DNA of 58,615 bases from contig JAKYXN010000036.1 in assembly GCA_022538095.1 (NCBI GenBank), positions 1-58,615 on the forward strand, read 5' to 3'. A program made the translations under genes and the position numbers. The number at the start of each line of letters is the position of its first letter. The first letter of the stretch is position 1. Under the pieces are notes generated by a model. It did no database searches, had not been told where the DNA came from, and saw only the letters and a list, made by a program, of their open reading frames with translations. Shown piece after piece: positions 35,332 to 37,377 of this stretch. This stretch comes from Puniceicoccaceae bacterium K14. GTDB lineage: Bacteria > Verrucomicrobiota > Verrucomicrobiia > Opitutales > Opitutaceae.

Positions 35332-36258
35332 TTAGAATAAGTTCCCTGAGGTTTTTAGCCCCATAAGGTTTTCGAGGAAGCTGATGCCGGTCCCTTTTTC
35401 CTTCACGGCGAGTACAGCGCATTTCTTTGAATTTTTGATAATGTCCTCCGCGTTGCTTCCAAGGAGGGTAGCGGTTAGGGCGTCTTTGCCTCGGCAACCG
35501 ACGACTGCAAGGTCGTAGTCTTCGTTGTCTGCTAGAATGCGGAGAGCGATCCCTGGGCAATGGCTTTCTTTCGTTACTGCATTTGCTTGAACACCCCTAA
35601 GATTTTGGTCGCTAAGGAATTTCTTTAACTTCTCCTCGCTGAATATTTCCAAGTCTTTGCGGATTTCTTCTTTTGGTATGTTTGTTTTGTGGTAGCCGGT
35701 CGGAATATTGTAATAGTTAATACAATCGATCTCTTTTACACCGTTCGCTTTGCTGAAAGCAGTTGCGATATCGATAGCGTAGTAGGAATACGAAGACATA
35801 TCTAGACCAAGGCAAACCTTGGAAAAATTGCCTGAGGACTCTGGGGGCACAAAAAGAAGTGAGCAGGGAGCTTTTCGGGCCAGCTTAACAGCGACGCTGC
35901 GGTCGTCCGGAGACTCCCCACTGATGATGAGGTCGATCTTGCTCTTCAGAGAATGCTCAAGCAGGGCAACTGTGGGCTGCTTTTCAAGAATTTCGACTGT
36001 TACGGAACAGTCTGGGTATCCATCGTAATACTTAGAGATGATTTCATCGGCCTTAGTCTTGGCAGATGAACTGATGGGTTCAATAAGCCAAGGATATTGC
36101 TTCTGTAGGTTGCTCGGGATTTCAACCGGTTCACGTGAGTAGATGAAGTGAATGGATTCCGAGCAAGCGAGCTTAGTGATGACGCTCGCGAATTTAATAA
36201 GAGGGGCATCTTTTTCGGTGAGGGAAAGATTGACCAGTAGTTTTTCGAATCTGTACAT
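35332..36258 (-). CDS. Tandem universal stress protein
   Basis: 308 residues from ATG 36258 (MYRFEKLLVNLSLTEKDAPL). The frame extends to 36327, but this ATG lies exactly in the mirrored leader and matches the family start. There are two UspA-like domains. The first (about 1-150) ends SLLFVPPES and lacks the nucleotide motif. The second (about 155-295) has G-2x-G-9x-GS (VGCRGKDALTATLLGSN), so ATP binding is likely only there. It is the first gene of the Mrp/SbtA operon and abuts mrpAB. A role in sensing energy or ion stress is inferred from position. Confidence 0.82.
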   Translation of the reverse strand: MYRFEKLLVNLSLTEKDAPLIKFASVITKLACSESIHFIYSREPVEIPSNLQKQYPWLIEPISSSAKTKADEIISKYYDGYPDCSVTVEILEKQPTVALLEHSLKSKIDLIISGESPDDRSVAVKLARKAPCSLLFVPPESSGNFSKVCLGLDMSSYSYYAIDIATAFSKANGVKEIDCINYYNIPTGYHKTNIPKEEIRKDLEIFSEEKLKKFLSDQNLRGVQANAVTKESHCPGIALRILADNEDYDLAVVGCRGKDALTATLLGSNAEDIIKNSKKCAVLAVKEKGTGISFLENLMGLKTSGNLF

Positions 36259-36282
36259 GATTTTATTTATGAAATTTAAAAC

Positions 36283-36298
36283 ACGAAATATTTTTCGT
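36283..36298. promoter_or_regulatory. Operator-like dyad ACGAA-N6-TTCGT (left)
   Basis: ACGAA-ATATTT-TTCGT, 25 bases from the stress-protein start on the minus strand. Its mirror partner is the dyad at 36335. Confidence 0.6.
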
Positions 36299-36334
36299 AA
36301 AACGGTCGAAATCGGCTTGACTGTCAATTAAAAT

Positions 36335-36350
36335 ACGAAAATAAATTCGT
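36335..36350. promoter_or_regulatory. Operator-like dyad ACGAA-N6-TTCGT (right)
   Basis: ACGAA-AATAAA-TTCGT, 24 bases before the small-protein start. The half-sites are identical to the left dyad while the spacer differs, which suggests selection on the half-sites. Confidence 0.6.
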
Positions 36351-36374
36351 GTTTTAAATTTCATAAATAAAATC

Positions 36375-36581
36375 ATGTTAAGTCTCACTACTAATCCGGT
36401 TGCCGGACTGTTCCGTCGCACAAAGCGGCGTTTTACTCGTGGAGGGTTGGGTTCATCTCGCAAGAGCATTGCTCAAAAAATATGGGACGGTGAACCTGCT
36501 CCTTCTGTCGTATCTTCATCTGAAGCATCCGCTGAGAGAGAATCAGCGTATTCCCGTCTCAAATCTGAAACAAAATATTGA
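36375..36581 (+). CDS. Small basic protein, family member 2
   Basis: 68 residues (MLSLTTNPVAGLFRRTKRRF start). It shares TTNPV[SA]GLF, a basic RRF patch, GGLGS and KSxAxKxWD with the protein at 27718. The C-terminal half (SEASAERESAYSRLKSE) is polar and unlike the paralogue. The start codon lies inside the mirrored repeat. A gene resembling a ribosome hibernation factor follows with overlapping or near-overlapping ends, and a winged-helix regulator comes next, so these may form one transcript. No known family is recognised. Confidence 0.75.
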   Translation: MLSLTTNPVAGLFRRTKRRFTRGGLGSSRKSIAQKIWDGEPAPSVVSSSEASAERESAYSRLKSETKY

Positions 36582-36592
36582 TCCACCATATA

Positions 36593-36931
36593 ATGCATAT
36601 GACTGACAACAGCCTCTCCAAAAATCTTTCAATAAATTCAGTGGGAGCTCGCGTGACCGCTTCAGTTCGTTCTTATCTTGATAAGAAGTCTCAAAGTGTT
36701 TTTCGTCGTTACCCGAATCTTTTGGGTATGGAGATAGATTTAAAGTACGACAAAAATGTGCCTGAGGGGTATCTTGCTCGATCGCGACTTGTCTTGCCTG
36801 GATATGATCGAATCGTGGAGAAGAAAGGTTCGAGTATGTACACTGCCATTGCGAGACTCATGGAGGTTTCCGAGAGACAACTTCGTCGTCGGGCTCGTCT
36901 CTTTAAGTCAAAAACGCGATCTCTTAAATAA
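36593..36931 (+). CDS. hpf: Ribosome hibernation promoting factor-like protein (HPF/RaiA family, short)
   Basis: 112 residues from ATG 36593 (a second ATG at 36599 is equally likely; a TTG at 36578 overlaps the previous stop). It has the HPF/YfiA pattern: TASVRSYLDKKSQSVFRRYP helix, an edge strand VEIDLK-like MEIDLKYDKN, and the ending SSMYTAIARLMEVSERQLRRR with the conserved aromatic/acidic helix and basic tail. It lacks the C-terminal dimerisation domain of long HPF, so it belongs to the short type. Such proteins bind the 30S decoding region in stationary phase. Similarity is moderate, so the function is probable rather than certain. Confidence 0.72.
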   Translation: MHMTDNSLSKNLSINSVGARVTASVRSYLDKKSQSVFRRYPNLLGMEIDLKYDKNVPEGYLARSRLVLPGYDRIVEKKGSSMYTAIARLMEVSERQLRRRARLFKSKTRSLK

Positions 36932-36993: not shown

Positions 36994-37377
36994 GTGAAAG
37001 TGATTCTCGACAAACACGTATTTGATGTCATGAAAGCTGATTCGTACATTATAGCTCACATGAAAGTCGAAGCCCTAAGCCCTAAACCAGCAACAAGCCA
37101 GTCATCGTCGTGGACCTTTTTTTCCAATCATGCCCACGTGCTGCTGTCTTTGTATCGTAACCCTGATTCTACTTTGAGAGATGTGGCCAACCAAGTTGGC
37201 ATCACAGAGAGGGCGGTACAAAAAATCGTAGCTGAATTGGAAGCCGCGAATGTTTTGAGCAAAACGAAGGTAGGGCGATGCAATCGATATTCGATTAACA
37301 AAAAGAAGCGCTTACGCCATGCGATTGAGTCGCATCGAAACGTAGGCGATTTACTTCGTTTCATAGAAACGGATTGA
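36994..37377 (+). CDS. Winged-helix (MarR/ArsR-like) transcription regulator
   Basis: 127 residues from GTG 36994; ATG 37030 or 37060 are more compact starts. The conserved core begins WTFFSNHAHVLLSLYRNP at about residue 40, then LRDVANQVGITERAVQKIVAELEAANVL (helix-turn-helix plus wing), and ends HRNVGDLLRFIETD. This is a well-spread family of small regulators with that exact WTF-NHAHVL opening. A candidate target is the ACGAA-N6-TTCGT pair 600 bases upstream; this is inference. A decayed copy of the 3' end of this gene lies at 41969-42007. Confidence 0.82.
   Translation: MKVILDKHVFDVMKADSYIIAHMKVEALSPKPATSQSSSWTFFSNHAHVLLSLYRNPDSTLRDVANQVGITERAVQKIVAELEAANVLSKTKVGRCNRYSINKKKRLRHAIESHRNVGDLLRFIETD

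Follow-up and report, generated by a model that had tools for sequence, protein, structure and literature searches.

The window, by which we mean the whole stretch of 58,615 bp that was analysed, comes from a MAG of 5.7 Mb in 358 contigs. Two transcription units diverge at the locus. On the minus strand, a gene for a universal stress protein (USP) heads an Mrp-type gene cluster in which SbtA (PF05982) is also encoded; on the plus strand, genes for a small basic protein, an HPF-like protein and a winged-HTH protein follow one another. The inverted repeat with which this study is concerned lies between them. When the HPF-like protein was searched for, strong orthologues were obtained in 11 of 252 family genomes (E < 1e-26; next 2.9e-15), and these give the 11 operon loci to which the counts below refer. 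The features are as follows.

35332 to 36258, minus strand: USP with two Usp stretches (PF00582), head of the Mrp/SbtA cluster
36255 to 36299 (perfect part 36255-36287), no strand: left arm, with the USP start codon, the leader and the USP-side operator
36283 to 36298, no strand: USP-side operator-like dyad ACGAA-N6-TTCGT, with a counterpart in 11 of 11 operon loci at 0-2 mismatches
36317 to 36345, plus strand: inferred promoter of the small/HPF-like/HTH operon, TTGACT-17-AATAAA, with TTGAC in this position in 11 of 11 loci
36334 to 36378 (perfect part 36346-36378), no strand: right arm, with the operon-side operator, the leader and the start codon of the small basic ORF
36335 to 36350, no strand: operon-side operator-like dyad ACGAA-N6-TTCGT, 52 bp from the USP-side dyad and overlapping the inferred -10
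36375 to 36581, plus strand: ORF for the small basic protein (68 aa), with counterparts in 11 of 11 loci
36599 to 36931, plus strand: HPF-like protein with S30AE domain (PF02482, 29.9 bits, cut-off 23.7)
37030 to 37377, plus strand: winged-HTH protein, a candidate repressor from its HTH_24 match, its structure model and its association with the dyad

The USP has orthologues in Pelagicoccus mobilis KCTC 13126 (G204) and Pelagicoccus sp. IP29b_bin.57 (G206), with identities of 51% and 49%, respectively. Small ORFs of 59-68 aa occupy the equivalent position at all 11 orthologous loci, and by eye their products have a short common core with a terminal W (AKRIW, VKKLW, GKSFW). No Pfam match was found for the window's small basic protein, and no NCBIfam match for this sequence or that of P. 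mobilis. Lying next to the HPF-like gene in 11/11 loci, it could encode a ribosome-associated partner. The Pfam query for the HPF-like protein began at 36602. Its score against the HPF/YfiA equivalog model TIGR00741 was 22.5 bits, below the cut-off of 40.9, and therefore we call the protein HPF-like. The winged-HTH gene starts at 37030 or at 37060, the longest ORF listed beginning at a GTG at 36994. A weak dyad (1 mismatch) at 37030-37045 overlaps the first of these two possible start codons, and it could be a third operator if the gene begins at 37060. In three genomes (L055, L057, L061), inspection by eye also showed a voltage-gated sodium-channel-like ORF near the HPF-like/HTH operon.

Positions 36255-36287 and 36346-36378 are exact reverse complements over 33 bp, and both ATGs lie inside them, that of the USP ORF at 36258 (minus strand) and that of the 68-aa basic ORF at 36375 (plus strand). 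The perfect 33-nt arms are flanked by unpaired bases, T/T immediately outside and A/A immediately inside. The extended imperfect arms, 36255-36299 and 36334-36378, have 45 nt each and are 93% complementary. Both the perfect repeat with its two start codons and the imperfect symmetry out to 36299/36334 had been described from the letters of the DNA (hereafter, the sequence-only reading), and both are confirmed. The 58,615-bp window has no second inverted repeat that reaches 18 nt within 400 bp. When the 251-bp region was shuffled 300 times with its dinucleotides preserved, the longest perfect repeat per shuffle averaged 8.0 nt and never exceeded 17, so the 33-bp repeat is far above the chance expectation.

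The inferred promoter of the plus-strand operon scores 9/12 to the consensus, and its -10 falls inside the operon-side dyad. On the USP side, no promoter pair of at least 7/12 with a -10 starting in the USP-side dyad was found, and there is no recognisable -35. TTGACT/AATAAA was not listed in a generic promoter scan, since the rules of that scan exclude AATAAA as a -10. The scan listed TCGAAA-17-TAAAAT at 36306-36334, and its total of 3 promoter-like sites is at the shuffle level (2.5), without excess. The mirror covers the operator and the leader, not the whole promoter; the proposal that the whole promoter had been copied and inverted is not supported, since the search of the USP side gave no mirrored -35.

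The genus is represented by a single assembly, which leaves room for the mirrored leader to be an assembly or library artefact of the MAG. Several points argue against this. The first 12 bases of the USP gene are identical to those of the P. mobilis orthologue, and therefore the USP start codon is correct. The two arms are not the same within the dyads, whose central 6 nt are unlike, and the operator core is present in independent assemblies. We rate the chance of an artefact as slim.

Dyad pairs at orthologous loci

The gene order small ORF, HPF-like, HTH is found in 11/11 loci, also in those without a divergent USP gene. The complete divergent arrangement is kept in both Pelagicoccus genomes, and in these two genomes and the present one the divergent gene is the USP gene of the Mrp operon. 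Under a search rule that admitted spacings of 48-60 bp and required TTGAC between the dyads, oriented toward the HTH operon, a dyad pair (CGAA-N5/6-TTCG, 0-2 mismatches each) was found 51-55 bp apart in all 11 loci, and TTGAC begins 19-22 nt ahead of the operon-side dyad in every one of them. Both dyads are exact in 6 of the 11. When the spacing was freed to 35-70 bp, 8 of the 11 gave 52-54 bp, and in G206, G150 and G207 different pairs were picked, at 40, 67 and 40 bp, respectively; G329 and G468 (40 and 37 bp) are omitted from the 11 because they are not operon loci. None of the 60 dinucleotide shuffles of the whole locus matched the observed pair at any of the 11 loci.

These orthologous positions also bear on the question of whether the repeat represents the ends of a mobile or invertible element, such as a MITE or a phase-variable promoter; a short promoter segment with long inverted repeats at its ends would fit such an element. 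A MITE or other mobile element was rejected because the leader is present in a single copy (no further copy of the 25-nt leader was found genome-wide at up to 3 mismatches) and because the core stands at the orthologous place in the two Pelagicoccus genomes. An invertible segment is unlikely, as TTGAC points toward the HTH operon in 11/11 loci, an orientation that was part of the search rule. As a whole, we regard this explanation as extremely improbable.

A locus search with the USP alone gave no loci, and an alignment scan gave 24. In the 22 of these 24 USP loci that are without the HTH motif, 18 of them from other phyla, no exact dyad was found.

The winged-HTH protein and the associated dyad

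The winged-HTH protein passes the cut-off of HTH_24 (PF13412) with 27.0 bits against 21.9. It stays under that of MarR_2 (PF12802), with 25.7 bits against 27, and far under that of the ArsR model NF033788, with 16.3 bits against 55. The structure model (mean pLDDT 73.6) shows a winged HTH, for which the best structural matches (Z 9-10) are ArsR and MarR proteins, mixed and tied, and the best PDB sequence match of the protein is SmtB (E 0.011). Residues H35, H37, H98, E101 and H103 are invariant among three HTH sequences and are candidate metal-site residues only.

Homologues of the protein occur in 48 of 372 genomes of the order and 28 of 387 genomes of the phylum, the two samples being evenly drawn and overlapping. 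From the 67 loci (L122-L188), we counted 45 after dropping duplicates, loci in which no HTH motif was recognised and those in which fewer than 220 nt precede the helix codons. Of these 45, 32 have a dyad with no more than one mismatch 60-230 nt before the recognition-helix codons; among 594 background windows of the same length, 25 have one. The dyad is exact in 14 of the 32, several of which are close relatives. Exact dyads within 290 nt upstream were found at 9 of 28 HTH loci, where 0.1 would be expected from shuffles. The sequence-only reading had held that two dyads imply one regulator for both sides. The pair in 11/11 loci, the HTH gene in the operon and the dyad upstream of its homologues all speak in favour of this view.

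The 13 of 45 loci with no dyad at up to 1 mismatch comprise 4 with an ATGAA form and 9 without a clear site. All 4 distinct loci with the recognition helix AVHAIV carry ATGAAGTCAAC(T/A)TCAT in place of CGAA/TTCG, and ATGAA-N6-TTCAT within 1 mismatch is also present in 7 loci with other helices. The covariation of helix and operator is therefore weak and at most suggestive; the AVHAIV loci, which are related, may go back to a single event.

The neighbours of 47 HTH loci are USP/Mrp genes (9), SbtA (11), IDH (3), NhaA (1), MetK (7) and none of these (16). The queries for NhaA, IDH and MetK were chosen after these genes had been sighted beside HTH genes or dyads, while the counts of USP/Mrp and SbtA, which together adjoin 20 of the 47 loci, are free of such choice. 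Two arrangements were noted, with the antiporter gene and metK named by eye. In G150 (L056:1959-1974, 2451-2466), exact dyads stand before the HTH gene and before an NhaA-type antiporter gene. In L139-L144, all from a single family within the order, the HTH gene lies directly upstream of metK, and one dyad is found 157-158 nt before the helix codon.

Searches for further sites gave the following counts. Exact ACGAAN6TTCGTGT has 3 sites in the genome itself, two in this region and the third inside an ORF. Allowing one mismatch raises the count to 40 (13 + 27), compared with 24 (16 + 8) for the reversed pattern, with palindromes counted on both strands. The sites in this genome thus exceed the control, yet we do not claim a wider regulon beyond the region. 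Across the family, the pattern occurs 11 times, in 9 of 252 genomes, and its reversed form 7 times. Seven of the 11 sites precede the HPF-like/HTH operon, one precedes an IDH gene and three are chance-like.

That the dyad precedes IDH and nhaA genes as well would fit a different regulator, with the HTH gene merely a fellow member of its regulon. On the other hand, the dyad follows the HTH gene through varied neighbourhoods (SbtA, Mrp, MetK), and the variant operator accompanies a changed recognition helix in 4/4 related loci. We consider a different regulator unlikely, and the HTH protein itself remains our candidate for binding the dyads.

The closest known systems are those of the ArsR/SmtB repressors (SmtB, ZiaR, AzuR), which in the portion of PMC8790569 that was available have 12-2-12 inverted-repeat operators with a TGAA-N6-TTCA-like core. 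The likeness would consist in the predicted winged HTH, the operator-like inverted repeat with N6 spacing, the placing of one or two such repeats by the start site and the divergent transporter genes (PMC8790569, same portion). The core is CGAA-N6-TTCG here and TGAA-N6-TTCA in one clade (4 related loci), the latter being the form close to that of ArsR/SmtB in the same source. The neighbours differ, with Na+/bicarbonate transport and ribosome hibernation here instead of metals. We infer that the HTH protein works like an ArsR/SmtB-type repressor; we say "like" and do not assert membership because the curated ArsR cut-off failed despite the similar operator geometry. In cyanobacteria, SbtA/Mrp genes and Na+-dependent bicarbonate uptake are regulated by CcmR/NdhR and SbtB. 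The control of Na+-dependent bicarbonate uptake would be alike in the two cases, and the type of regulator is unlike. Joint control of divergent units would also be shared with the divergent promoters of pLS20, for which the accessible part of PMC4207663 describes paired operators and looping. Unlike those, the operators here are mirror copies that include the leaders, and looping is not claimed for the present locus. In the open-access literature, to which the search was confined, we found none that names this regulator or operator in Verrucomicrobiota; the part of PMC13274419 at hand mentions Mrp genes and no such regulator.

The common leader and its origin

Outward from the dyads and through the ATG, 29 of 30 positions are the same in the two arms of this genome. 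The first 14 nt resemble TGTATT.AATTTC, and at several loci one arm is similar to the other over this stretch. Averaged over the 10 other loci, the two arms agree at 7.6 of these 14 positions, and the distal and proximal arms of different loci agree at 7.5. From these alignments, the 14-nt similarity is a shared element, i.e. a flank of the operator or of the start region. Beyond it, 15 of 16 positions match here, as opposed to a mean of 4.4/16 (maximum 7) in the 10 other loci and 5.0/16 (maximum 10) between loci. Among the genomes compared, which belong to other genera, the remaining leader identity is thus particular to this one.

These values bear on the question of selection on the leaders. 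If the two leaders were held identical by selection, through an sRNA, an RNA-binding protein or a translation signal shared by both mRNAs, an almost complete match through the ATG and the similar 14-nt flanks elsewhere would be natural. Nevertheless, the leader beyond 14 nt is unshared in 10/10 other loci. A purine-rich stretch resembling a Shine-Dalgarno sequence, seen by eye in several small-gene leaders elsewhere, is absent here. No Rfam family reached its gathering score, and the 14 matches obtained are miRNA models far below threshold, as expected of any long hairpin. Selection on the leaders is accordingly a poor candidate in our estimation. The sequence-only reading had raised the identical leaders as a possible control point for both genes and had named, as support, arms that stay identical to each other while drifting between species; across the genera compared, neither a conserved control point of this kind nor such arms were found.

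We prefer an origin by replication. Template switching between imperfect inverted repeats homogenises their arms (PMC8604942, seen in part), and quasipalindrome homogenisation by this route is also described in portions of PMC7202029 and PMC8794818. As in the published quasipalindromes, so far as these portions describe them, an imperfect repeat has become perfect over a continuous tract that ends at shared sequence; the arms are imperfect in the relatives, which are of other genera, and form a continuous perfect tract here. Two differences from those descriptions should be mentioned. The spacer has 34-58 nt here and a few bp in the cases described in the part of PMC8604942 that was seen, and the converted tract here consists of a leader and start codon common to two genes. 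Replication template switching probably homogenised the leaders in this genome, judging from the pattern of the arms. From TTCG to ATG, the leader has 32 nt on both sides here; elsewhere it has 34-51 nt on the small-gene side and 47 and 53 nt on the USP side. This weakly suggests that the USP side took over a copy of the small-gene leader, a direction which rests on two USP leaders and for which the alignment z-scores overlap.

Proposed regulation of the two operons

We think it fairly probable that the locus is a twin-operator divergent region, in which a dimer of the HTH protein represses both operons and the long mirror is a lineage-specific by-product of template switching. The winged-HTH dimer, produced from the third gene of the right-hand operon, would most likely bind each dyad, and at each of them the bound protein would cover the -10/start region of one of the two transcription units. 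One protein would in this way repress the USP-Mrp-SbtA genes on the left and, by autoregulation, its own operon with the HPF-like protein on the right. The spacing of 51-55 bp corresponds to about five helical turns, and therefore both dimers would lie on the same face of the DNA. A signal, perhaps sodium, pH or inorganic carbon, would release the HTH protein, and ion/bicarbonate transport and ribosome hibernation would then be switched on together. As for the mirror, the operator and the ATG, being common to both sides, would be the places for switches; template switching between the operators would have copied one leader over the other, more likely with the small-gene side as donor, and would have stopped at the ATG, where the sequences already agreed.

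A wider generalisation is conceivable, although we regard it as doubtful: an apparently undescribed winged-helix repressor of Verrucomicrobiota might couple Na+/bicarbonate transport (Mrp, SbtA, NhaA) to ribosome hibernation via CGAA-N6-TTCG, with its operators seeding repeated template switching by which operator and leader are copied or extended, as in the 33-bp mirror and in a 42-bp palindrome of G177. To our knowledge, few regulators have been studied in Verrucomicrobiota. If the proposal is true, it names a regulator, an operator and a set of targets, all open to experiment, for Na+/H+ antiport and Na+-dependent bicarbonate uptake, and ties them to ribosome hibernation. It would also be an example from nature of a leader rewritten up to the start codon by a replication slip between operators, and operator-seeded template switching would be a route by which a neighbouring gene is given the same control.

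The palindrome of G177 (C90, near 4353; L083:1506-1547) is perfect over its 42 bp and is centred on the same dyad. It ends about 35 nt before the ATG of a gene that by eye is isocitrate dehydrogenase-like, and it may be a second instance of template switching.
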